A DNA stretch of 64,000 bases from Kyrpidia tusciae DSM 2912 (GTDB lineage: Bacteria > Bacillota > Bacilli > Kyrpidiales > Kyrpidiaceae). The notes under the pieces are model-generated. The model worked only from the letters and a program-made list of their open reading frames with translations, was not told the DNA's origin and made no database searches. The DNA is taken from the NCBI RefSeq assembly GCF_000092905.1, contig NC_014098.1:868001-932000 (forward strand), written 5' to 3'. The position numbers and the translations under genes are program-made. Positions 15,413-61,004 of the stretch are shown here, piece after piece. How positions within the stretch are numbered: the first letter of the stretch is position 1; each line of letters begins with the position of its first letter.

Positions 15413-15649
15413 GTGACCAAAGTGGTCAACGTCCACGAGGCAAAGACGCATTTTTCAAAACTATTGGCGCGTGTAGAAGTCGGGGAAGAGATCGTCATCG
15501 CGAAAGCGGGTAAACCCCTCGCCCGGCTCGTGCCTTATCGCGAACGGCCGACAAAGCGCGTACCGGGCACAGCCAAAAGTCTAATTGTTGTCGGGGAAGA
15601 TTTTGACGATCCGCTGCCGGAGTCGATTCAGAGGTTGTTCGAACGATGA
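15413..15649 (+). CDS. Antitoxin of the Phd/YefM family
   Basis: About 78 aa. The N-terminal DNA-binding part has VVNVHEAKTHFSKLLARVE and EEIVIAKAGKPLARLVPY, the normal Phd/YefM pattern. The C-terminus (GEDFDDPLPESIQRLFER) is the toxin-binding arm. It should neutralise the VapC encoded next and repress the promoter. AGGAGG at 15399-15404 overlaps GTG 15404, so GTG 15413 (MTKVVNVHEAK) is the likely start. The stop overlaps the vapC start by four bases. Confidence 0.88.
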   Translation: MTKVVNVHEAKTHFSKLLARVEVGEEIVIAKAGKPLARLVPYRERPTKRVPGTAKSLIVVGEDFDDPLPESIQRLFER

Positions 15650-16032
15650 AGACCCTTCTTGATACGCACGTCTTCCTGTGGTGGATCACCGATGATGGGC
15701 GGATGTCCAAACGTGCAAGAGCGATTATCCAAGATACAAGGAATGAACTGTATTTAAGTGCGGCGAGTGCCTGGGAGATCGCGATCAAAGCCGCCCTCGG
15801 CCGAATACGCGTATACGAAGATTTGGACCGGTTCATGACCCAGCAGATGAACGAAAACGGTATTGTGGATTTGCCCGTCGAGATTCTCCATGCGCTCGGG
15901 GTCTATGGGCTTCCGGATTTGCACCGCGACCCGTTTGACCGCCTTTTGGTCGCCCAAGCCATACAAGAAGGCATGCCCGTCATCACCGCGGATGAGTGGA
16001 TCAAGTGTTATGATGTTGAGACGATCTGGTGA
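15646..16032 (+). CDS. vapC: VapC-type PIN-domain ribonuclease toxin
   Basis: 128 aa. PIN-domain acidic residues are seen in MKTLLDTHVFLWW (first Asp), SAASAWEIAIKAALG (Glu) and DLHRDPFDRLLVAQA (Asp pair), and a final acidic site lies in ITADEWIKCY. Such toxins cut RNA when the antitoxin is lost. It is complete and coupled to the antitoxin by an ATGA overlap. A truncated copy of the same gene lies at 9576. Confidence 0.9.
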   Translation: MKTLLDTHVFLWWITDDGRMSKRARAIIQDTRNELYLSAASAWEIAIKAALGRIRVYEDLDRFMTQQMNENGIVDLPVEILHALGVYGLPDLHRDPFDRLLVAQAIQEGMPVITADEWIKCYDVETIW

Positions 16033-16426: not shown

Positions 16427-17434
16427 CTAAACCTTCACCAGAGCAGCCCCAATGAAGCGGCGGAATTTGTGCAAGGAATCCAGAATTCGGTCCGGGTCAA
16501 TACCGCGCACGATGATGACCAAGCGAGAGACTGTATCTTCGTCAGGCCATTCGGACAAATGGATCGGGGGGTGCACGATGTGCTGAACGCCGTTGAGGAC
16601 GATGGGGCCTGCGGAACCGACGTCCAGTAAACCTTTGATCCTTAAGATATGCTCGCCGTGGGCGTGCAACAACATGCTCAACCAGACACTGAAGGCACTC
16701 CAGTTCACCGAGCCAGCAAAGCGCAGCGAGAGGGAGGCCGTTGCGCTGTTGGAGTCACGGCGGTCAGAGACACTGGACGGGAGATCGTTTTGCAAACCTA
16801 AGTTTTCGCGGCCGTTTGCCGAGAGAAGATCTTTCAAGAATTCTGCTTCCTGCTCGATATGGCCGTTTTTAGCCGTAAAGATCGTTGCCGAGGGATTCAT
16901 AGCTCTAATTTGGCGACCTAACATGACCACGCCCTGTTGATCTGCGATATCCGTCTTTGTGATGATCACCCAATCCGCGCTCGTTATTTGTTTTACCCAT
17001 TCGGGGTGCGGGCCCAAGGGGGAGTGTGTCGTCGCGTCGACCGTCGTGATCACGCCGCCGATGCGAAACCGATTTTGTAACATTGGATCGGTGTAGATCG
17101 TGAACATAATGGGAGCGGGGTCCGCCAGACCGCTTGTTTCGATGATCACCCGATCGATGTGTTCACCGGAGTCAATGCGGTTGGCAACCTGTTGCAACAC
17201 CGCGACCAAATCACTTCGCAATTGACAACAGACACATCCGCCCTTGAGCACTTGGGTTTCTTCTTTTACTTGTTGAATGAGGTATTGATCCAGTCCCACG
17301 GATCCGTATTCATTGATAACGATTTCTGTGCGGGCAGGGTCGATGAACTCCATAACATGGGCGAGAATCGTCGTCTTGCCGCTGCCCAGAAACCCAGTCA
17401 AAATGATCACGGGTATTCTTGTATCCGTTGCCAT
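16427..17434 (-). CDS. CobW/P47K-family metal-chaperone GTPase
   Basis: 335 aa. Walker A GFLGSGKTT is followed by NEYGSVGLDQ, the metal-binding motif GGCVCCQLRSDL (CxCC), switch II ETSGLADPAP and the base-specificity motif TKTD. The C-terminal COG0523 domain has HGEHILRIKGLLDVG and a histidine-rich stretch NGVQHIVHPPIHLSEWP. This family delivers zinc or another metal to target enzymes. ATG 17434 gives the expected start (MATDTRIPVIILTGFLGSGK). The longer frame would run into the previous gene. Last gene of the operon with the metal-dependent hydrolase, so it probably serves that enzyme. Confidence 0.88.
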   Translation of the reverse strand: MATDTRIPVIILTGFLGSGKTTILAHVMEFIDPARTEIVINEYGSVGLDQYLIQQVKEETQVLKGGCVCCQLRSDLVAVLQQVANRIDSGEHIDRVIIETSGLADPAPIMFTIYTDPMLQNRFRIGGVITTVDATTHSPLGPHPEWVKQITSADWVIITKTDIADQQGVVMLGRQIRAMNPSATIFTAKNGHIEQEAEFLKDLLSANGRENLGLQNDLPSSVSDRRDSNSATASLSLRFAGSVNWSAFSVWLSMLLHAHGEHILRIKGLLDVGSAGPIVLNGVQHIVHPPIHLSEWPDEDTVSRLVIIVRGIDPDRILDSLHKFRRFIGAALVKV

Positions 17435-17447
17435 GACACTCTGCCTT

Positions 17448-17849
17448 TCAATCAGATTGGGATATGAACCGAAGAAGCGTCTCATCAAGAGGATCCGGCA
17501 GCCGGCGTGAGAGTCGTTCCGTTTCTTGCCACACCTCACTTAGATTTTGTGCCATAACCATCTGCCCTTTTTTATCGCTGACCACGAAACGAACTCCGTT
17601 CCAGTCGGAGACGGTGAGCCCGTAAAACGCAAGTATCTGGTTCAGCATGGCCACCATCTCCAACCTTCTTCTGCGGTGCAGGCGACTGTCTTCGCTGCCG
17701 GCGTAGGCCATATCGCTATCGTTCTCTTTTTGTACCCCTTCCGTCCAATGAACGCTTGTCACCAGATCGGCGCATAGAACGCACAACGCGGGTGCCCCCT
17801 TCGGTAGCAAGTTCGAGCAATCTGAACAGCCCGGCTGGACCAAGGACAT
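17448..17849 (-). CDS. Small zinc-ribbon-like protein
   Basis: About 133 aa, no family recognised. The N-terminal region holds two CxxC pairs, QPGCSDCSNL and ALCVLCADL, spaced about 17 residues, a probable zinc site. The rest is helical and Arg-rich around HRRRRLEMVAMLNQ. ATG 17849 is chosen because it lies just after the stop of the upstream hydrolase; the open frame extends further but would overlap that gene. It ends 13 bases before the CobW start. It may be a metal-binding accessory or small regulator. Confidence 0.55.
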   Translation of the reverse strand: MSLVQPGCSDCSNLLPKGAPALCVLCADLVTSVHWTEGVQKENDSDMAYAGSEDSRLHRRRRLEMVAMLNQILAFYGLTVSDWNGVRFVVSDKKGQMVMAQNLSEVWQETERLSRRLPDPLDETLLRFISQSD

Positions 17850-17865
17850 CCAGCCGGACTCGATC

Positions 17866-18750
17866 TCACTTTTTGGCCTGAGTCCGCCCGATGAAATCAT
17901 CCGCGATCTCGTCAAAGGTGACCCAGCGGACCCCATCGTGGGAATTGATGTGTTCGATCAGGCGTTCGTGCATGAGCAGAACTTGCGGGCGTCCACTCAC
18001 GTCGGGGTGCACGGTCATGGCGAACACCGCATAGTCATACTCCCGGTATACCCAGTCAAATTGGTCCCGCCACATTTGCTCGATGTCCCGGGGGTTGATA
18101 AACCCGAAGCTGTTCGGCGATTTTTTAATGAACATCATCGGGGGCAAGTCATCCAGGTACCAATTGGCGGGAATCTCGACCAATTTGGTTTCTTCGCCCC
18201 TGACGAGTGGCTTCATCCACTCGGAAGCCGGTTTAGAATAATCGATTTTTGTCCAGTGATCGCCTACCCTTACGTAGTACGGATGAAAATCGTTGTGCAT
18301 CAAGCTGTGATCATACTTGAATCCGTGTTTGAGCAAAAGTTCGTTGGTCACGTTGGAGAACTCCCACCAAGGTGCCACGTACCCAGTGGGTCGTTTTCCG
18401 GCGAGGCCTTCGATCAATTCGATCGATTTCAGCAACACATCTTCTTCCTGCTTAGGTGTCATGGCGATCGGGTTTTCGTGGGAATACCCGTGCGCCCCGA
18501 TTTCGTGCCCCGCCTCCACGACCATGCGCATTTGATCCGGAAACGTTTCAATGGAATGACCGGGAATGAACCAAGTCGTCTTAATCTTATACTTATCGAA
18601 CAATTTTAAAAGTCTCGGCGCACCGACCTCCCCGGCGAACAACCCCCGTGAAATGTCATCCGGCGAATCTTCCCCGCCATAGGATCCAAGCCAACCGGCC
18701 ACCGCGTCGACGTCGACTCCATAAGCGACCAGGATTTCTTTCTTCGCCAT
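17866..18750 (-). CDS. Polysaccharide-deacetylase-fold hydrolase (imidase / PgdA / PuuE-like)
   Basis: 294 aa, single NodB-type domain. [20 protein letters not shown] and [17 protein letters not shown] are typical of the subgroup that includes H. pylori HP0310 and the cyclic imide hydrolase of Pseudomonas putida. Likely metal ligands are an Asp near residue 13-15 and the His pair of HGYSHE (HxxxH); [10 protein letters not shown] holds the C-terminal catalytic His. There is no signal peptide, so it is cytoplasmic, which favours an imidase or allantoinase-type role over cell-wall deacetylation. It lies 24 bases after the asparaginase gene and before a CobW metal chaperone. Confidence 0.8.
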
Positions 18751-18774
18751 CCGCGAATCCCTCCGCCTTCGTAT

Positions 18775-19740
18775 TTATTGACTGTAGGCTTGAACAATCC
18801 TGTACATCTCTTCACGGCTCAGGCCACTGGCCAACATGAGCCCTAATAATATCCGCGCCTTTTCGCCGGCGAGGTCCCCCGCAAACCAGGCTCCCTTCCT
18901 CTCCAGGTCGCGGCCGCCCCCGTCTCCATAGATCGGAGCCACGGCGCCGGCGTTGCAACGGGAGGTCACGATGACCGGTACACCATCGCCAACGAGTCGA
19001 CCAACAGCTTGCGCCACAGTCGGATGAGCATTTCCCCTCCCGTATGCTTGCAGCACCACCCCTTCGTACCCGCTGGCTATGCGCAAAACTTCCTCCCCGT
19101 CGGTGCCAAGCCCCAGTCGGATCAGGGCGACTCGGTGCGGTGGTAAAAGGGGCAAAAGCGGCCGATCCCTTTCCTCCCGAACGAGGAACACTTGGCCCCG
19201 ATCGATCCTACCTACAGGCCCCCAGCCCGGTGCGCCAAATGCCTGAAGCGCATTGGTATCGATCTTTTTAACCTCTCGACCGGAATAGATAAACCCCGCG
19301 AAAACGATCACCGGTCCAAGGCCCGCGGCTTCAGGAGATCTGGCGACCAAAATGGCGTCCGACAGGTTCTTCGGTCCATCCGAAGACGGATGGCTAGCAT
19401 CAAATTGAGCGCCGGTTAACACAACAGGCTTTTGTTTTGGTGTGACAAGAGACAGGTAGAAGGCTGTTTCTTCCATGGTATCGGTCCCATGGGTAATCAC
19501 GACTCCATCGACTGCATCTTTTGCGAGGGCGCTCTGCACTGCTTTCCCGATCACATACAGTGTGTCAAAGGTGAAGGCATAGCTTCCCAACGTCACACTT
19601 TCCTGCACTTCGACATCGGATGCGCGGATCTTCTTGAGTAATTCTTGGCCTGGCAGAACTGCCTTCACATCTCCGTCGTCTTGAGGGAGTGCGGCAATCG
19701 TTCCACCTGTCGTAATCACTGCAACGTGTCCCAACCCCAT
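18775..19740 (-). CDS. Asparaginase-family amidohydrolase
   Basis: 321 aa. The two active-site threonines are in ITTGGTIAALP and VITHGTDTMEETAF. Other conserved parts are GAQFDASHPSSDGPKNLSDA and TSRCNAGAVAPIYG. It splits a side-chain or related amide to acid plus ammonia. No signal peptide is seen, so it works in the cytoplasm. ATG 19740 after GGCGGGGGGTG is preferred over the start ten codons upstream, which would lie on the sigma-54 promoter. In context it could act on the half-amide released by the neighbouring imidase-like hydrolase, but L-asparagine is the default substrate. Confidence 0.87.
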   Translation of the reverse strand: MGLGHVAVITTGGTIAALPQDDGDVKAVLPGQELLKKIRASDVEVQESVTLGSYAFTFDTLYVIGKAVQSALAKDAVDGVVITHGTDTMEETAFYLSLVTPKQKPVVLTGAQFDASHPSSDGPKNLSDAILVARSPEAAGLGPVIVFAGFIYSGREVKKIDTNALQAFGAPGWGPVGRIDRGQVFLVREERDRPLLPLLPPHRVALIRLGLGTDGEEVLRIASGYEGVVLQAYGRGNAHPTVAQAVGRLVGDGVPVIVTSRCNAGAVAPIYGDGGGRDLERKGAWFAGDLAGEKARILLGLMLASGLSREEMYRIVQAYSQ

Positions 19741-19764
19741 TTTCACCCCCCCGCCACTATCCTT

Positions 19765-19781
19765 TCGCAAAATCTATGCCA
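19765..19781 (-). promoter_or_regulatory. Sigma-54 promoter of the asparaginase operon
   Basis: On the minus strand TGGCAT-AGATT-TTGCGA matches the -24/-12 consensus TGGCAC-N5-TTGCA with exact spacing. The predicted transcript starts near 19754, about 14 bases before the asparaginase ATG. Confidence 0.75.
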
Positions 19782-19847
19782 AGCAACTGCGCGGGGAGCT
19801 GTCTATGGTTCGGGGGTTAATAGGTCATCTTGGGACCAATTGCAATG

Positions 19848-21587
19848 CTATTTGCCAAATTGCAATCCATACTTCTGAAACTTCCGCGTGATGGTTGATT
19901 GGTTCACCATGAGTTTTTGGGCAATCTCTCCAAGAGTTGACGTATCTCGTGCTGCCAGTTGAAGAAGCTGGGTTTCCATAATCTGCTGGGCTTGTTTTAA
20001 CGGGAGTACCTCTCGCACCACGATGGGTTCATTCCTGTCAGGAGAATCGGCAGGACGCGGGACACCTTTACTGATGTGAGCGGGCAAGTCGTCTGCATCA
20101 ATGATGTCATCCTCAACCGTCACAACAAGCCTCTCAATGAGGTTTCTCAATTCGCGAACATTGCCAGGCCAATCGTATTGTTCTAGGAGAGACATGGCCT
20201 TTTTAGAGAGGCTGACATTGTTCCGGTGGATTTTCTGGGCAAAATGGGACAAGAATTTGTTGACCAAGGGAACAATGTCTTCGCGTCGCTCGCGAAGGGG
20301 CGGGATGTAGACAGGGATCACATTCAACCTGTAGTATAGATCGCTTCGAAAGGTTCCTTTTGCCACCATGGTCTGGAGATCTTTATTGGTGGCGGCGATG
20401 ATTCGGACGTCCACGGGGATTGGATTGTAGCCGCCGATTCGTGTGATCTCTCTTTCCTGCAAGACTCGTAACAGCTTCGCTTGAACACTTAAAGGCATAT
20501 CCCCGATTTCATCCAAGAACAACGTGCCTTTATTGGCAAGCTCGAACAAACCCGCCTTGCCATTTTTTTGCGCACCCGTAAAAGCTCCTTTCTCGTATCC
20601 AAAGAGCTCACTTTCCAAAAGGGATTCGGGAATGGCCGCACAGTTGATCTTAATCAGGGGATAATCCGCTCGTGGGCTCAGCCGATGGACGTGATTGGCG
20701 AGAATTTCTTTACCCACGCCCGATTCCCCGGTGATTAAAATCGTGGAATCCACCACGGCAACCCGGCCGAGGAGAGACATAATGTCTTCCATCTTTTTGC
20801 TGCGATAAATAAGTGCTCGGTCCGTATCGGACTGCGATTCTTGAAGTTGGACGAATTGCATGCGATAGCCTTCAATGATCTCTTTTAGATTCCGAATCTG
20901 CTCCTCGAGCTCGTGAAGCTCCGTAATGTCTTTGGATGCGTTGACAACTCTCACGATATTTCCGGCACTATCACGAATCGGAGTACTTACCACCATGAGC
21001 CTGCGCCCTGTACGGGTTTGCTGCACGATCTGGACCTTTTTTCCCCGCTCCAAGGCAATTCGCGTCGCTGACGGATAGTAAACCCCTTCTTTCTCCAGCT
21101 CATAGACGGTTCTTCCGATCAGTTCTTCAGGCCGTTTCCCCCACAAGACTTCACAGGCGGAACTCACTCGAAGGGTAACACCTTTTCCATCCGATACATA
21201 GATAACATCGTAAGAATTTTCGAATATCGTTTGCAGGTCTTGGATTGTTGCTTCATATTCCTTCATCTGCTGCTTGATAGCACCGGCGATTGAGGCTTCT
21301 TCAAACACCAACACAATGAGATCATGATATTCCTTTGAATCCAGCGGGGCGGCGGAAAGCAAGTAGTCGGTTCCCAAAACCCTGATTGGATGGCCAAGAA
21401 TCAGTTTCCGTTGTTTGCAGATCTCGTCCAATCGAATGGATTTCGAGTAATCTGGCAGGTATTCATATAGCCGCGAACCGGAAGCGTTCGCCATCATCAA
21501 TTCTCCACGGACGTTGACCACTATGACGGCGCTGGGGAGGGATAAGAATGTGTCCTGGATCAATTGCGAATCAACGAGGTTTTTCAA
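19848..21587 (-). CDS. Sigma-54-dependent transcriptional activator with two PAS domains
   Basis: About 580 aa. Two PAS-like sensor domains (near residues 20-110 and 125-230) precede a short coiled linker, the AAA+ domain and a C-terminal helix-turn-helix. The AAA+ domain has Walker A ITGESGVGKEILANHVH, the sigma-54 contact loop GAFTGA, FLDEIGDMP and the R-finger region. The C-terminus is TLGEIAQKLMVNQSTITRKF. It drives open-complex formation by sigma-54 polymerase in response to a ligand. The frame opens at TTG 21629, but TTG 21587, preceded by GGGAGG, is more credible and leaves a 14-nt activator site upstream. The two sigma-54 promoters on either side are its likely targets. Confidence 0.9.
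   Translation of the reverse strand: MKNLVDSQLIQDTFLSLPSAVIVVNVRGELMMANASGSRLYEYLPDYSKSIRLDEICKQRKLILGHPIRVLGTDYLLSAAPLDSKEYHDLIVLVFEEASIAGAIKQQMKEYEATIQDLQTIFENSYDVIYVSDGKGVTLRVSSACEVLWGKRPEELIGRTVYELEKEGVYYPSATRIALERGKKVQIVQQTRTGRRLMVVSTPIRDSAGNIVRVVNASKDITELHELEEQIRNLKEIIEGYRMQFVQLQESQSDTDRALIYRSKKMEDIMSLLGRVAVVDSTILITGESGVGKEILANHVHRLSPRADYPLIKINCAAIPESLLESELFGYEKGAFTGAQKNGKAGLFELANKGTLFLDEIGDMPLSVQAKLLRVLQEREITRIGGYNPIPVDVRIIAATNKDLQTMVAKGTFRSDLYYRLNVIPVYIPPLRERREDIVPLVNKFLSHFAQKIHRNNVSLSKKAMSLLEQYDWPGNVRELRNLIERLVVTVEDDIIDADDLPAHISKGVPRPADSPDRNEPIVVREVLPLKQAQQIMETQLLQLAARDTSTLGEIAQKLMVNQSTITRKFQKYGLQFGK
19851..19864 (-). promoter_or_regulatory. Candidate upstream activator site, asparaginase side
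   Basis: TGCAATTTGGCAAA on the minus strand, 70 bp upstream of the -24 element, overlapping the last codons of the activator gene. It differs by one base from the site at 21610-21623. Confidence 0.5.
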
Positions 21588-21609
21588 CTTGATGTAACGC
21601 CTCCCTTCA

Positions 21610-21623
21610 TGCAAATTGGCAAA
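21610..21623 (+). promoter_or_regulatory. Candidate upstream activator site, transporter side
   Basis: TGCAAATTGGCAAA lies about 94 bp upstream of the sigma-54 promoter of the transporter, the usual distance for an enhancer. It is also in the leader of the activator gene, so it could allow autoregulation. Confidence 0.5.
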
Positions 21624-21645
21624 GTGCAATGCAGTTCTTGTCTAT

Positions 21646-21651
21646 ATTATA
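21646..21651 (-). promoter_or_regulatory. -10 box of the activator gene
   Basis: A perfect TATAAT on the minus strand about 60 bases before TTG 21587. The -35 region 17 bases upstream (GAGACA) is poor, as for a weak constitutive promoter. Confidence 0.4.
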
Positions 21652-21716
21652 GTCGAATTCCAACGCAATGTCTCTTACACAACGACGAAACCTTCCTTCT
21701 TCAGCCGAGCCACGTT

Positions 21717-21733
21717 TGGCATAATCGTTGCTT
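21717..21733 (+). promoter_or_regulatory. Sigma-54 promoter of the MFS transporter gene
   Basis: TGGCAT-AATCG-TTGCTT, with the same -24 hexamer and spacing as the asparaginase promoter. The transcript would start near 21743, leaving a 90-base leader. Confidence 0.75.
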
Positions 21734-21747
21734 GCTATTCAGTTTAC

Positions 21748-21790
21748 AGGAGGTGATCCTGGGTTTGTCATGACAAAGAAGTCGAAATAA
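21748..21790 (+). other. Very strong ribosome site followed by a six-codon ORF
   Basis: AGGAGGTGATCCT (21748-21760) is fully complementary to the 16S rRNA 3' end. Nine bases later ATG 21770 opens MTKKSK and stops at TAA 21788. It lies at the start of the predicted sigma-54 transcript, so it may be a leader peptide or the stump of a lost gene. Confidence 0.4.
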
Positions 21791-21832
21791 CAGGTAATAC
21801 AGATACCGCCAATTTAGAGGAGGGTTTCAGTA

Positions 21833-23170
21833 GTGAGTATAAAGCCGTCGGATCTAAATCTCGATCAAAACAGTTTGACGAGTCGGGACGTGACCTACGC
21901 CTCTATTGTTGCTCTTGTGGCTTGGACATTGTCCGTGTTCGACTTTATTTTGTTCGGCACGTTGCTGCCAGAAATGGCGAAAACCTTTGGGTGGTCAACG
22001 GCGCAAATGGCGAATATTGCGACGTGGGTTGCGGTGGGAACGTTCGTGATTTCGTTAACGGTGGGCCCCCTCACTGACTACCTCGGGCGAAAGAAAGCTC
22101 TTATCGTCACGACGTCCGGTGTGGCCGTCAGTTCGGGTTTGACCGCGTTGTCCATCTTTATCCCCAGCTCCATCTATGTTGTGCTTGTCCGGGCGCTCTC
22201 CGGGTTCGGTTATTCCGAGCAGGCTGTCAATACCACTTACCTATCGGAATTATACGATGATAAAAAGCGCGGCTTGCTCTACTCTTTTATCCAAGGCGGC
22301 TGGCCGATCGGTGTGATGCTTGCATCCATTGTGACCGCATTACTCGAGCCATTGATTCAATGGCAAGGGATGTTTGCCGTGGGCATCATTCCGGCAATCA
22401 TTATTGTTCTTCTAGGAATCAAGCTAAAAGAATCGCCAAGATTTCTCCACCTGAAGCACGTTCGCACTCTTATGCGCCAAGGCAAACAAGAGGAAGCCGA
22501 AGCTTACGGAAGGGCCCATGGTATCAATACAGAGCGTTCCACGGGTTTCACGTACGCCCAGCTTTTTTCCAGACAGGACGGTTCTATGCGGACCACTTTA
22601 TTTCTCGGGCTCGCCTTTATGTTGAACTGGTTTGCCATTGAAGTGTTTAATGTACTGGCCACCACAGTGCTAACAGAGGGGAAACACATCAACTTCGGGA
22701 ACTCGTTGTGGCTCCTCGTTTTGGCAAACGCCGTGGGGTACGCAGGCTATGTTTTCCACGGATGGTTGGGCGACCGGATTGGGCGGCGGGAAACCATTGC
22801 CATCGGCTGGATTCTCGGAGGGCTCGCCTTTGCGGCCATGTTGTATGTGGCGAATGGATATTGGAGTGTACTCATCTTTCAAAGCATTGGAAGCTTCTTC
22901 TTGAACGGCCCGTACTCGGCCCTGTTTGTCTTTATGAGTGAGTCGTACGCCACCCGGATGCGCGGGACCGGCACCGCGTTTATTAATGCCATGGGTCCGA
23001 TCGGCGGCATTCTGGGGGCCCTCGTGTTCTCAATTTTGGTATCGACGAATATGGGAGTGTTGGCGGCTGCGCTGATTGGAGGAGCGCTACCACTCACTCT
23101 GTCCGGCCTTGTCATTCTTGCGACCCGGCGCATCGAACCCGGCAAGTCTCTGGAGGAATTGGCTGCTTGA
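21833..23170 (+). CDS. MFS transporter, proton-coupled organic-acid type
   Basis: 445 aa with 12 predicted membrane helices. The MFS motif A between helices 2 and 3 reads GPLTDYLGRKKALI, and its second-half copy is GWLGDRIGRRETIA. Helix 1 holds the acidic residue in WTLSVFDFILFGTLLPEM, as in aromatic- or dicarboxylic-acid symporters. It starts at GTG 21833 after GAGGAGGG. It has its own sigma-54 promoter and lies divergent to the activator gene, so it most likely imports the compound broken down by the cluster. Confidence 0.88.
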   Translation: MSIKPSDLNLDQNSLTSRDVTYASIVALVAWTLSVFDFILFGTLLPEMAKTFGWSTAQMANIATWVAVGTFVISLTVGPLTDYLGRKKALIVTTSGVAVSSGLTALSIFIPSSIYVVLVRALSGFGYSEQAVNTTYLSELYDDKKRGLLYSFIQGGWPIGVMLASIVTALLEPLIQWQGMFAVGIIPAIIIVLLGIKLKESPRFLHLKHVRTLMRQGKQEEAEAYGRAHGINTERSTGFTYAQLFSRQDGSMRTTLFLGLAFMLNWFAIEVFNVLATTVLTEGKHINFGNSLWLLVLANAVGYAGYVFHGWLGDRIGRRETIAIGWILGGLAFAAMLYVANGYWSVLIFQSIGSFFLNGPYSALFVFMSESYATRMRGTGTAFINAMGPIGGILGALVFSILVSTNMGVLAAALIGGALPLTLSGLVILATRRIEPGKSLEELAA

Positions 23171-25172: not shown

Positions 25173-26159
25173 ATGGAACACTACTGCCAGCATTGTGACC
25201 GCTTTCGACCGTCGCACACGGAAGAACGGGAAGAAACGTTCAAGGTGCGGGGGGAGGAGATCACGATCCGGGGTCCTTTGCGTGTCTGTGATGAATGCGG
25301 CCACGTGATGGGGGACGAGGAACTCGACGGGGCCTTGCTGGTCAAAGCCTACAATGAGTACCGGCGCCGCCATGGGCTGCTGATGCCCGAAGAGATCCGC
25401 GCGATCCGCGAGAAATACAACCTGTCCCAAGGGGCTGCCGCAAAGCTCCTGGGGTGGAGCCCGGCGACGTTCACCCGTTATGAGGGAGGGGCGATGCAAG
25501 AGGCGGCCCATGACGAATTGCTGCGCCGAATGCGGGATGACCCGGAATGGGTTCGTGGCCTTTACCGGCGGAACAGCCGTCGGCTTTCCGCCTTGCAGCG
25601 CCGCCGGGTGGAGGAAGCGCTGCAAGAAATTCATGAGCCTACCGAAGCCGACGAAATGGAAGAGATCATCGGGCGGCTGAACAAGGAAGGAGAGTTCAAC
25701 CCCGGCAAGCTCTTTACCGTCGTCCGACTGATCGCCGAGAATGCCGGCAAGCTGTCGAAATCCGTGTTTCTGAAATACCTGTTTTACATTGATTTCCTGA
25801 ATTTGAAATGGCACGGGGAACCGCTCATGGGCCTCGCTTACGTGAAAAACCATTATGGGCCTGTTCCGCGTTACCATGGGCTCCTGCTGGAATATTTGGA
25901 GGCGAGCGGTGCGATCCGTCGGGAAGAGATCGAGCGGGGCGGAGAGATTGTCGGCGAGTACGTGGAGGGCTTGCCTGTGGAGCGGGCCGAGCCGTTGGAA
26001 GAACATGAGCGCGATGTGGTGGATTATGTGATTGAGACGCTGAAAGGGATGAATGCGGAGCGCATCTCCGAGTTTTCCCATGAGGAGCCGGCGTGGATCG
26101 AGGCGCGGTTGAAAGAGGTTATTCCGTATGCGAAGGCCGAGACGCTGAGGATTGGGTGA
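25173..26159 (+). CDS. Antitoxin: MqsA-like zinc/HTH head plus Panacea (SocA/DUF4065) domain
   Basis: 328 aa. The zinc-binding head has CQHCDRF and CDECGHVMG (two CxxC). It is followed by an HTH_3-like domain IREKYNLSQGAAAKLLGWSP and FTRYEGGAMQ (to about residue 130). From about 175 the Panacea domain reads VFLKYLFYIDFLNLKWHG, then YVKNHYGPVPRYHGLLLEYL. The Panacea domain serves in many otherwise unrelated TA pairs to neutralise small toxins, and the HTH head should bind the palindrome at 24708. A terminator follows directly. Confidence 0.85.
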   Translation: MEHYCQHCDRFRPSHTEEREETFKVRGEEITIRGPLRVCDECGHVMGDEELDGALLVKAYNEYRRRHGLLMPEEIRAIREKYNLSQGAAAKLLGWSPATFTRYEGGAMQEAAHDELLRRMRDDPEWVRGLYRRNSRRLSALQRRRVEEALQEIHEPTEADEMEEIIGRLNKEGEFNPGKLFTVVRLIAENAGKLSKSVFLKYLFYIDFLNLKWHGEPLMGLAYVKNHYGPVPRYHGLLLEYLEASGAIRREEIERGGEIVGEYVEGLPVERAEPLEEHERDVVDYVIETLKGMNAERISEFSHEEPAWIEARLKEVIPYAKAETLRIG

Positions 26160-29375: not shown

Positions 29376-29643
29376 TTTGTAAAAATATTCAATGTCATTG
29401 TACAATTGGATATGGTTTCCTGTCAAGGTGCCGCGAGCCAAAGCAGTGCTGACGCATGAACCGGTGTAGAAAAAATTCGGAGGCAGCTGAGGCGGCCCCG
29501 GACTCTGAATCCCTTCTGCCTGTAGGGTGTCCCTGTAAAGGAGAATCGCCCTGAATGACGGGAAAATCCATTTCTGTTGATCATTGGATCCCCAGAGGTT
29601 ACAGCTCCCCTCCCCCACAGAACGATGTTGCAAGATATTCCTG

Positions 29644-31059
29644 TTAAAACGCCATCGTCAGCCGCGGAGGACCTTGGCAACGCGCCAGCAGCCAGTCCCG
29701 ATCCATCCACCCCTGCGTCCAGCTTTCGTACAGAAACTTCAACGTCCCGCTAAAGCCCAGTTCCCGCACTTTCTTCATCAGCCCTTCGGTATGCAAGGCC
29801 ATGACGTTCACCAGATGGCCGAGGTGCATCAGCACGTGCCAGTTTCGCATCGCCGTCCAGTCGGTGGAGTACAGGTGCTCATACTCGTATCCCCGGTGCT
29901 TCTCCGTCAGGATCTGTTCCTCAATGTCCCATCGGTGGCGTGCCGCACGATTGCAGCGGTTCACCACATTTTGTGCCGTCAGCGGCTGCCCGGACACCCA
30001 CGCCCAATGCGCCTCCTGCTGCTTCCCCCCCTCTTCCCAAAACTCTGTACATCCCACGACATGCACCTTAAGCCGACGGCGCGCCCCGGAAGCCTCCCTG
30101 AAATCATAGTCGATCTGATTGATCCACCAAAAGATTTGCTCGCGATTGCCCCACCGGTGTCTCCGCTCGTTGGGTTCGATCTTTCTCAAGCCTTTGACCT
30201 CTTCCCACACACTGGGCAAACAGCTTTGGGGCAGGACAAACATAAAGTCCAGATGCAGATCCCGACACAGCGCCATCATCGGCCCGTTGGGGTACAGCCC
30301 ATCGGCCACCACCAAGATCCGCAATTTGGGAAACATCTTGCGCAGGCGGGTCAGCAGCCGTTTGCAGGCCTTCAGTTCACTGTCTTGCTTCTCGAACTCC
30401 TGCTGCTCAGCCGCATTCTCGCAAAACTCCGTGAGAAACGGGAGGACCACCCCTTGAGGGCTGACAAGGCTAGCCTCCAGGGCATAGGCCATGGACGAGA
30501 CCTCGTTCTCCCCGTGCCGACGATGCAAAGCCTCCGAGGCCCAGGGCTGCCCCCGACTCGCCTTTTGGGTCCCGTCTATGGCGATCACGTATTGCTTCTC
30601 GACCAACAGCGCCTTCAGTCGTCCCGACCGCAGAAGGCGCTTCACCGTCGCCGTCATCACCTCCTCGAGCTCCCCCGGATTGATCCGTTCCAAGATCCGC
30701 TGCACCGTGTCCATATGCGGGATGGTTTCCACCTCCGGAAAGATCTCCCGAAAGTGTTCCCAAAACGTTGGACGCGTCAGTTCCCGATTGGCTCTTCTGC
30801 GGGAGGCATACTGAAAGATAAACATGAACAGCCCAAACGTCAGAAGCACAGTCAGTTTGTGCCGAATGCTCCCTGGACGTCGGGGGTCGGCAATCCGCGA
30901 AAACTTCTCCATCAAGCCCGGCAACAACGCTCGCCAAACCGGCAACTGGGCTTCCACGGCCGTTTGCCGGTCCGCTCGCTCCTCCTCGCTGTTTCGATAC
31001 GAGCTTTTCCGATTCGGAAGGGTCCAGGGGTGAATCGACTCGGGATTCCGAAGCGTCAT
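29644..31059 (-). CDS. IS4-like DDE transposase, copy A
   Basis: 471 aa from ATG 31059, which overlaps the DUF4338 stop (ATGA). The open frame continues upstream but there it shadows the other gene. Likely acidic residues are D in YVIAIDGTQKAS, D in ILVVADGLYPNGP and E in RWDIEEQILTEKHRGYEY, a YREK-like block typical of the IS4 superfamily. The N-terminal third has RRPGSIRHKLTVLLTFGLFM. A 9-bp target duplication is common in parts of IS4. I do not recall a named family with this gene pair. Confidence 0.8.
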   Translation of the reverse strand: MTLRNPESIHPWTLPNRKSSYRNSEEERADRQTAVEAQLPVWRALLPGLMEKFSRIADPRRPGSIRHKLTVLLTFGLFMFIFQYASRRRANRELTRPTFWEHFREIFPEVETIPHMDTVQRILERINPGELEEVMTATVKRLLRSGRLKALLVEKQYVIAIDGTQKASRGQPWASEALHRRHGENEVSSMAYALEASLVSPQGVVLPFLTEFCENAAEQQEFEKQDSELKACKRLLTRLRKMFPKLRILVVADGLYPNGPMMALCRDLHLDFMFVLPQSCLPSVWEEVKGLRKIEPNERRHRWGNREQIFWWINQIDYDFREASGARRRLKVHVVGCTEFWEEGGKQQEAHWAWVSGQPLTAQNVVNRCNRAARHRWDIEEQILTEKHRGYEYEHLYSTDWTAMRNWHVLMHLGHLVNVMALHTEGLMKKVRELGFSGTLKFLYESWTQGWMDRDWLLARCQGPPRLTMAF

Positions 31060-32081
31060 CTCGATTCCCCCCACTCGTCTTCCACAAGCTGTGGAAAGGG
31101 TTCGACCAACCGCTTCCGCCAGTCCCGCACCAGCGGATAGACCCAGATCGATTTCACGGACGTTCCATACTCGAAGAATCGATCCTGTCTTCCTCGTCCC
31201 GCCGTCTTCCCGATCTCGATCCAGTTGGCCGCTCGGTAGCAAGTCCCTGGATATTGGGGTTCGATAAACGTCTCCAAAAGAACCGGTTCAAACCCATAGC
31301 GCGCCTTCCAATCCGCTCGAATCCGCCGGGCCGCCAACGCAAGCGCATGACTGGCCAGATGGGGAATCTGTACACCCGGCAGAATCAGAAACCGATTGTT
31401 GTTCACGATTCGTGGGCGATACCGCCTGCGCTGCTCCGCCGTCCATCCGATCCACTGATCCCGTGCAGCCAGGGCCTTCGCCGCAGCCCCAAACAACATC
31501 GCCCCCACAATGACCGGTCCGTTTGGCCCCTGTGCCCGGATCCAGTACTGGATGCGGGCCCCGATCCCACGAAGGTACCCCAACGGGTGATACGTCGCCA
31601 TGGTCGCGTTCCAGTCTGCCCGTTCTTCCGGACGGACCGGCTCCACGATGACCGGAAGGACATCCCGCAGGCACGCCTGAAGCTGGGTTTGTACCACCCC
31701 CCCTCTTCGTTCCCGGCACCCTCGGGGACCCTGGGCTCGCAAGGGCGGAAGAGTAATCACTCCTTTTTGCTCGAGTTTTAGAAGCAGCTTGTGGCAGGCT
31801 TCGACTTTCAGCCGGCCATTCGGGGACTTCCACGGCAGATTCTCACACAAGGTCGCCGCGATTTCCTCTCGACTCAAGCGGGAAAACCGCTGGACCGTGT
31901 TTCGAATCAATTCCAGGTCCGCCTCGCGAAACTCTCGGTCGCCAATCCAAAAGGGTACGTCCATCTGAGACTCACCTCTCGACATCATCTCCAAGGTTAT
32001 CATCTCAGATGGGCTCAGAACTGTCCAGTCGTATTTGCAATCAAATTTTCTTGAGACGCGCTCTGAAGTCAAGCGTCCCAA
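31056..32081 (-). CDS. DUF4338 (DruA-like) protein of the IS, copy A
   Basis: 341 aa. The N-terminal part (about 45-110) has a winged-helix look, LSREEIAATLCENLPWKSPN. The central DUF4338 core runs YHPLGYLRGIGARIQYWI then GAMLFGAAAKALAARDQWIG. Then VNNNRFLILPGVQIPHLASH and FIEPQYPGTCYRAANWIEIG complete the family pattern. The family includes DruA of the Druantia phage defence, but here it is the first gene of an IS with no other Druantia genes, so a transposition role is more likely. A promoter-proximal 5' extension before GESQMDVPFWIGDREF may not be translated. Confidence 0.85.
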   Translation of the reverse strand: MGRLTSERVSRKFDCKYDWTVLSPSEMITLEMMSRGESQMDVPFWIGDREFREADLELIRNTVQRFSRLSREEIAATLCENLPWKSPNGRLKVEACHKLLLKLEQKGVITLPPLRAQGPRGCRERRGGVVQTQLQACLRDVLPVIVEPVRPEERADWNATMATYHPLGYLRGIGARIQYWIRAQGPNGPVIVGAMLFGAAAKALAARDQWIGWTAEQRRRYRPRIVNNNRFLILPGVQIPHLASHALALAARRIRADWKARYGFEPVLLETFIEPQYPGTCYRAANWIEIGKTAGRGRQDRFFEYGTSVKSIWVYPLVRDWRKRLVEPFPQLVEDEWGESR

Positions 32082-60400: not shown

Positions 60401-61004
60401 CCGGGGCGGGGACAGGACCAGCCGATGTCCCGCTCGGTTGGTGTTCCGATTCCAGCAAGTCCCCCAACTTTCGGATGAGGCCGGTGACGGCTGTCCGGGC
60501 CTTCTGGAATTCTTCGTCCCGAGCCCGGTTGGCGCGGGTGGCACGTGGTTTGCTGGCGCTCGTCGTAGGGTCATTCCCGGGCTCTGAGCCCACGGCCATG
60601 CGGGCCTCGTCCCCGGGGGCTGGATTGTCTTCAAAGACTGCGGAGGAGCGGCGACCTGTACGGGGTTGGCCAGCTGGATCGGCATCCGGCTCCAGAAAGC
60701 CATGCTCAAGTAGATACAACAGTGCTGCGGCGATATGTTTACACACACCCATGCGTGCAAACGCCGGGCAGGAACACCACAGGAGTTCCAGGCTGCCCTG
60801 ATGGTCTTCGAGAATGACCCGGTACTCCTTGCTTCCCAAGACGGAACATTCCCACCGCAGTCGGCCGTTGGTCGAGCGATCCCCTTCCGGCGGACTGGTG
60901 AGTTGCACGCGCCCTTGCTCCGCGTAACGTTTTCCGCGATTAAAAGTGGCTCGGTCGCCGATCAATGCCAAAATTTCTCTCGATGTGGTCGGAAACGGTT
61001 GCAT
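57435..61004 (-). CDS. SWIM-domain SNF2-family helicase
   Basis: 1,189 aa. SWIM zinc finger C77-x-C79...C88-x-H90 in WCSCPAFARMGVCKH. A long middle part (150-690) corresponds to the bacterial SNF2 N-terminal domain. The ATPase core has DEMGLGKTVQTIAFL (about 745), LILDEAQTVKNH (about 850), TGTPIENALDDLWSI and, in the second half, FSQFTQMLERIRGRL, then GGTGLNLTGADTVI and QAIGRAHRIGQ. It belongs to the RapA/HepA-like ATPases that remodel protein-nucleic acid complexes. It is complete. A relic of a second such gene lies at 27460. Confidence 0.93.
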   Translation of the reverse strand: MQPFPTTSREILALIGDRATFNRGKRYAEQGRVQLTSPPEGDRSTNGRLRWECSVLGSKEYRVILEDHQGSLELLWCSCPAFARMGVCKHIAAALLYLLEHGFLEPDADPAGQPRTGRRSSAVFEDNPAPGDEARMAVGSEPGNDPTTSASKPRATRANRARDEEFQKARTAVTGLIRKLGDLLESEHQPSGTSAGPVPAPGRRVTSRLSIDYILVHEGHVSLELKAGVDRTFVVKNIRDFIRDVQIGAPHPLTPRFSYQPELHDIASEDLAAMRVLSQVMAGESFYRSVNGYYSYDRKLGDRRMALPPAAANALLDELRGRQIFMAHGNAAPAPIVVAEDPLPSAGLEFRLLPGDKTTEGGVRLDLAPLARAEYLAAYRWLVVDGTLYRLSEQEDNLVSSFIQALRSETRPGGFLRSYERPQPQLSIPRDLVGTALSLTVPALETIGKIRVQPSLSKQIAKFPLRTEVLVDEGPDALSLDVSFHYEDAVFRPVAGSAPESPHEDADRAVSPSMDKIYIRDMDREMQVISILNEGPVTVKSGPGGQAKLSVPKEDETLYRFFHETVPALTALDHVSLYLSDGASAYVTDVQPQPEIRFDLDPAGGWLTVRFDVHGVDPAEVEQIRQALLRGMRYVRLESGAFLSLEDESFRRARSVLQTVLGDARSSSRKGRDTQGFRVPLYKTALLVDADDTRGVTRYSTAVRTLVESLSDPEALEIAPPAGLRTALRPYQLTGFRWMKTLAHYSLGGILADEMGLGKTVQTIAFLLSERETAPTDRPSLLVVPASLMYNWEAEFRRFAPSLRVTVVDGPPESRNQKLQNLQAGDIAVTSYPLLRQDIAQYAEIPFEHLILDEAQTVKNHTTQIFRAVQQIQAPKRFALTGTPIENALDDLWSIIHTLMPGLFPPLQRFKDLSPEQARRRVRPFILRRTKKDVLRDLPERTEMIHWVELDDKQKAAYLAFLNDAQLRAQQLMQKGGLTENRIAILALITRLRQVCADPALVVPEYDGSSAKLEALLELLRDYRVAGRRALVFSQFTQMLERIRGRLAQEGIEAFYLDGRTPPKDRLAMADAFNAGERGVFLISLRAGGTGLNLTGADTVILYDLWWNPAVDAQAIGRAHRIGQKNPVLVLRVIAKGTIEERMYALQMKKQALFDRVIESEKDPSAFRLTEEDVRALLSLTEADAEAVR

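Follow-up and report, generated by a model that had tools for sequence, protein, structure and literature searches.

How are these genes of the heat-loving Kyrpidia tusciae switched on, and what are they for, given that the families in the operon by themselves suggest no more than an asparaginase, a polysaccharide deacetylase and CobW? The K. tusciae genome is a single contig of 3,384,766 bp, and we analyzed the 64 kb between bases 868001 and 932000 (hereafter, the window; positions below refer to it). Our favored answer, which we hold to be probable, is a local sigma-54 regulon for the use of a cyclic imide or a similar ring, with one activator and two promoters. The genes concerned are listed below (L numbers denote related loci in other genomes, G numbers the genomes).

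16427..17434, minus strand: GTPase of the CobW family, proposed to act as metal chaperone of the imidase; likely start ATG 17434
17448..17936, minus strand: small conserved ORF (ORF162) between imidase and cobW; true start uncertain
17866..18750, minus strand: candidate cyclic imide hydrolase of the HpPgdA/HxnM type (polysaccharide-deacetylase family), here called the imidase candidate
18775..19740, minus strand: asparaginase-family enzyme, proposed half-amidase
19848..21587, minus strand: sigma-54 activator with an N-terminal part, PAS, AAA+ with GAFTGA and a putative C-terminal HTH; ORF open to 21629
21833..23170, plus strand: MFS transporter, proposed imide importer; homologues in L206, L208, L209 and L225

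For the asparaginase, ATG 19740 is a better start than the mechanically listed ORF start at 19770. The activator probably begins at TTG 21587, the listed start at 21629 being mechanical. Because the MFS and asparaginase genes lie on opposite sides of the activator, the window needs two promoters and two activator sites. The predicted promoters are as follows.

19766..19781, minus strand: sigma-54 -24/-12 promoter TGGCATAGATTTTGCG of the asparaginase-imidase-cobW operon, expected +1 at about 19755
21717..21732, plus strand: sigma-54 -24/-12 promoter TGGCATAATCGTTGCT of the MFS gene, expected +1 at about 21743

An earlier, sequence-only reading had claimed two sigma-54 promoters with exact spacing around an activator carrying GAFTGA. 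Both elements are present, with cores TGGCATAGATTTTGC at 19781-19767 (minus strand) and TGGCATAATCGTTGC at 21717-21731 (plus strand) and the GG-N10-GC spacing before both target genes, and the activator between them has its GAFTGA at residue 348 of a 593-aa ORF, in an AAA+ domain that also carries a Walker A motif. The pattern TGGCAYN5TTGC occurs three times in the window (0.31 expected); the third match (60539-60554, plus strand) runs antisense within an SNF2-family helicase gene and is probably due to chance. The asparaginase-side -12 ends in G rather than A or T, one mismatch to YTGGCAYRN4TTGCW. Pattern searches, on which all our whole-genome motif counts are based, found 11 exact matches to this consensus in the genome; 7 have an activator gene within 1.5 kb, where 0.19 would be expected, and leaving out the window's own site gives 6 of 10. 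Since exact matches cluster by activator genes, the -24/-12 consensus appears to work in K. tusciae. The sigma-54 gene on which the reading depended was looked for and found as one rpoN, and the genome encodes 17 strong sigma-54-activator domains. The MFS leader (21747-21790) opens with CAGGAGGTGATCCTG, which matches the Shine-Dalgarno sequence in full and lies in a small hairpin; the mini-ORF ATGACAAAGAAGTCGAAATAA (MTKKSK) comes next.

Two candidate activator sites lie upstream of these promoters.

19839..19866, minus strand: site upstream of the asparaginase gene, made up of the palindrome ATTGC-AATTTG-GCAAA (19851-19866) and, 20 bp further along, another left half-site, ATTGC
21608..21634, plus strand: site between activator and MFS gene, CATGCAAATTGGCAAAGTGCAATGCAG; best palindrome frame ATTGG-CAAAGT-GCAAT at 21615-21630

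They contain the shared 14-nt element that the sequence-only reading had placed 70 bp from the asparaginase-side promoter and 94 bp from the MFS-side promoter. The distances are right, and the exact copies (TGCAAATTGGCAAA at 21610-21623, plus strand; TGCAATTTGGCAAA at 19864-19851, minus strand) are the only two in the 3,384,766-bp genome, both at the activator gene; the next best are two single-mismatch sites. The element itself is real and its length was underestimated: it extends to 24 bases (TGCAAWTTGGCAAANNGCAWTGCA), 20 of which are identical between the window copies, and this pattern likewise has only two exact matches in the genome. On the asparaginase side, the copy runs into the final codons of the activator gene, so part of its conservation could be coding-derived. 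In L210 the corresponding site, located where the activator gene stops, has the sequence TATGC-AATATG-GCATA, with TATGC-AAAAAT-GCATA 20 bp further along. Both arms have thus changed symmetrically (ATTGC..GCAAA vs TATGC..GCATA), as would be expected of a palindrome, with coding conservation probably also contributing. The MFS-side element precedes the activator's likely ribosome site and is therefore probably non-coding; it is identical to that of L206, from another genus, at 24 of 27 bases (shuffles reached at most 19).

In the relatives the site takes the form WWTGC-N6-GCAWW, often in pairs 20-21 bp apart. Palindromes of the type TATGC-N6-GCATA lie between activator gene and promoter, paired at this distance in L188, L207, L210 and L225. 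With slightly relaxed arms, the motif occurs 17 times in the activator flanks of ten relatives (9.2 kb) vs 4 times in the other 152 kb, a 70-fold higher density that describes specificity and has an overstated P value as an independent test, the motif having been defined on the same ten regions. The window palindromes, with arms TTGC/GCAA, are weaker than those of the relatives: their arms have 0 and 1 mismatches, and the second copies are reduced to half-sites. A search of 80 relatives with the 24-mer at 3 mismatches, too strict for a diverged site, gave scattered matches and none recognized at orthologous loci. We conclude that the binding site is, as far as comparison of these regions tells, a larger and often tandem palindrome.

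The putative C-terminal HTH of the window activator, of Fis/TyrR type, matches HTH_50 at E 0.0045, below the Pfam cut-off, which the activators of L188, L207, L208, L211 and L226 pass. A search for loci with the activator as query found only distant activators. The activator's own promoter is predicted as follows.

21646..21674, minus strand: candidate sigma-70-type promoter of the activator, GAGACA-N17-TATAAT, 10/12 match

Sigma-70-type sites in the region are no commoner than in shuffles, and this one was assigned by position and best match. The MFS-side site (21608-21634) falls between its -10 box and the ribosome site of the activator, which suggests that the activator may repress its own gene when bound.

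What the operon does is indicated by the imidase candidate, which aligns over its full length with HpPgdA (3qbu, residues 3-294, E 1e-176). HxnM, an enzyme of fungal nicotinate breakdown, is a reported cyclic imide hydrolase; it is 64% identical to a P. putida cyclic imide hydrolase homologue and has 3qbu as its closest structural homologue (PMC9304392). Because the window protein matches this same structure, we infer that the operon opens a cyclic imide or similar ring and then cleaves the half-amide through the asparaginase-family enzyme, which would make it a pathway of cyclic-imide catabolism instead of asparagine use. The CobW GTPase adjoins a metal-dependent hydrolase, which suggests a role as metal chaperone. 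The small ORF (17448-17936) has no Pfam or NCBIfam match and is conserved at 31–39% between imidase and cobW in most relatives.

We searched 400 genomes of the class for the imidase-like gene and found it in 9, in 10 copies; in the eight genomes besides that of K. tusciae, the "deacetylase" is 82–88% identical. Every one of the 10 copies has an activator relative beside it, at most a few kb away. The constant parts of the operon are the imidase, CobW and, mostly, the small ORF (in L210 the contig stops past the imidase). As amide-cleaving enzyme there is an asparaginase in the window, L206, L210 and L225, a nitrilase in L188, L208, L211 and L226, and an amidase in L207, L209 and also L188. The permease is of the MFS type in the window, L206, L208, L209 and L225 and of the NCS1 type in L188, L207, L211 and L226, with a distant NCS1 in L210; for that of L188 the closest solved structure is the hydantoin permease Mhp1. 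The MFS-asparaginase-imidase-cobW genes form one series that diverges from the activator in L206 and follows it in L225. In a tree of the activators, the imide-linked ones, except that of L209, group with L187 and L189 (support 0.93), two loci with an activator of the clade and no imidase, which we left out of the set of imide loci. The activator relative at L187:7508-10771 (G073), the closest-scoring one, diverges from an adjoining rpoN gene in a genome with two rpoN, and lies upstream of a branched-chain amino acid type ABC transporter and an amidase; it has a -24/-12 site of its own. In other classes of the phylum, L227, L228 and L229 hold an asparaginase or nitrilase, the imidase, the small ORF and cobW; the activator was not matched at these three loci. 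G578 has two copies of the imide operon genes.

A GAFTGA-type loop and a -24/-12 element occur together in seven loci (the window, L188, L206, L207, L210, L225 and L226; the loop reads GTFTGA in L206 and GTFTGG in L225). L208 and L211 have neither, and their activators carry a deletion at the loop. This joint presence and absence supports the sigma-54 reading of the promoters; together with rpoN and the linkage of activator and operon, it lends support to the compact regulon of two sigma-54 promoters claimed from the sequence alone. L209, a second imidase copy in G115, was excluded from the covariation count; its activator belongs to another clade and no -24/-12 stands before its MFS gene.

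Other readings of the locus account for some of these observations. The 14-mers could be a chance match, with the genes transcribed from sigma-70 promoters; the degenerate palindrome alone is indeed not rare (of its 3 matches in the 64 kb, two lie outside the activator flanks). We consider this very improbable, as the only two exact 14-mers of the genome both lie at the activator gene, the conservation with L206 exceeds that of shuffles, and the promoter scan of the region found no sigma-70-like site before either the asparaginase or the MFS gene. It is also improbable, if less so, that just one of the two, the MFS gene or the asparaginase operon, is under the activator's control and that the other -24/-12 is fortuitous. 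The asparaginase-side site, partly in coding sequence and with a -12 one base off consensus, would be the one to doubt. Yet the -24/-12 there has a counterpart downstream of the orthologous activator in L188, L207, L210, L225 and L226, in the first four along with a site after the activator stop codon, L206 has site and promoter at the equivalent position of its divergent region, and the window copies agree at 20 of 24 bases.

More weight, though still a minor share, goes to a sigma-54 regulon that is real and serves asparagine or another amide, the deacetylase-family enzyme acting on a cell-wall sugar or other substrate. The operon begins with the asparaginase gene, Pfam and NCBIfam name only a generic asparaginase and polysaccharide deacetylase, and 3qbu was called a peptidoglycan deacetylase by its depositors. 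Against this, relatives keep the deacetylase-family gene and CobW but have a nitrilase or amidase in place of the asparaginase, the alternative permease is of the hydantoin type, and relatives of 3qbu are cyclic imide hydrolases (PMC9304392).

Under the imide-regulon reading, the PAS/AAA+/HTH activator would be made from its own sigma-70-type promoter and respond, through its N-terminal or PAS part, to an inducer that is most likely the imide or a product. Once induced, it would bind the WWTGC-N6-GCAWW-type sites at 19839-19866 and 21608-21634 and loop to RNA polymerase with sigma-54 at both -24/-12 promoters, which would open by ATP hydrolysis; binding at the second site would also repress the activator gene. 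One promoter would drive the MFS transporter and the other asparaginase-imidase-ORF162-cobW. After ring opening by the imidase candidate, the asparaginase-family enzyme would cleave the half-amide to ammonia and a dicarboxylate, with CobW possibly supplying the imidase metal. The operon thereby gains a regulator, a binding site, two promoters and corrected gene starts, and a pointer to cyclic-imide use.

Of greatest interest are two related loci that appear to have departed from sigma-54.

L208:5045-5460 and L211:11070-11490: loci of the GAFTGA-less activators, palindrome beside TTGTGA-N17/18-TATAA

No GG-N10-GC was found between activator and operon in L208 or L211. In both, TTGTGA-N17/18-TATAA(A/C) starts 35–36 bases after the start of the retained palindrome. 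These boxes score 9/12, equal to one other candidate per region, so their sigma-70 reading rests on the shared position; they were scored by script, as the promoter scan demands a T at the end of the second hexamer and did not list them. Two domain models detected no recognizable sigma-54 gene in G224 (L211), and G115 (L208) retains one. The L208 and L211 activators are sisters (support 0.995), so GAFTGA was probably lost in one event and the covariation rests on few independent changes. We lean toward the view that one orthologous activator group controls the same imide operon by two mechanisms, through sigma-54 in most genomes and, after one GAFTGA loss, as a sigma-70 activator in the L208/L211 lineage, acting at TTGTGA-N17/18-TATAA from the same kind of palindrome. 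If true, this would be a natural switch from sigma-54 to sigma-70 inside an otherwise unchanged regulon, and the loci with joint loss of GAFTGA and -24/-12 form a small natural experiment on activator conversion with targets unchanged.

Activator relatives that have lost sigma-54 interaction are known in TyrR and DhaR (PMC3162934). The L208 and L211 activators resemble them in lacking GAFTGA and in having an HTH that matches HTH_50; unlike these cases, the window activator keeps GAFTGA, and in L208 and L211 neither the operon nor the type of site has changed. In Firmicutes, sigma-54 regulons that have a dedicated activator are known from 39 reconstructed groups in Clostridiales (PMC6615313). 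Those activators have a Fis-type or similar HTH; as here, they adjoin their targets, and inverted-repeat activator sites, often several, lie upstream of TTGGCATN5TTGCT promoters. However, none of the 39 groups controls an imidase operon, fifteen of their motifs are TGT-N10-12-ACA rather than WWTGC-N6-GCAWW, and the usual site-promoter spacing is 100–250 bp, against 70 bp here (PMC6615313). The best curated family match over PAS-AAA-HTH is PrdR, the clostridial proline reductase activator (NF041552), for which the window activator scores 427.5 bits vs a cut-off of 795; the target genes also differ. As in HxnM and its P. putida relative (PMC9304392), an HpPgdA-type protein is proposed to open a cyclic imide; unlike the HxnM case, no nicotinate genes were seen at the locus and the amide-cleaving partner is an asparaginase-family enzyme. 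Literature searches found no imidase operon under sigma-54 control. The type of system is already known, and the sigma-54 regulon of an imide operon is a new member.

At 52% G+C, the locus (16427-23170) lies below the window as a whole (57%); the Kyrpidia tusciae T2 chromosome has 59.1% (PMC3236038). Because of its lower G+C, the locus may have been acquired by transfer. The imidase was not matched, at E 1e-60, in the same-genus Kyrpidia genome of the set. A PIN-domain protein gene (15646-16032) and a SocA/MqsA antitoxin-like gene (25173-26159) flank the locus, one on each side. Further downstream, a 2,012-bp repeat (29583-31594) containing an ORF with a transposase-associated domain has an identical copy 7,372 bp downstream; a DruA-domain ORF adjoins the repeat, and an IS110-type transposase lies between the two copies.
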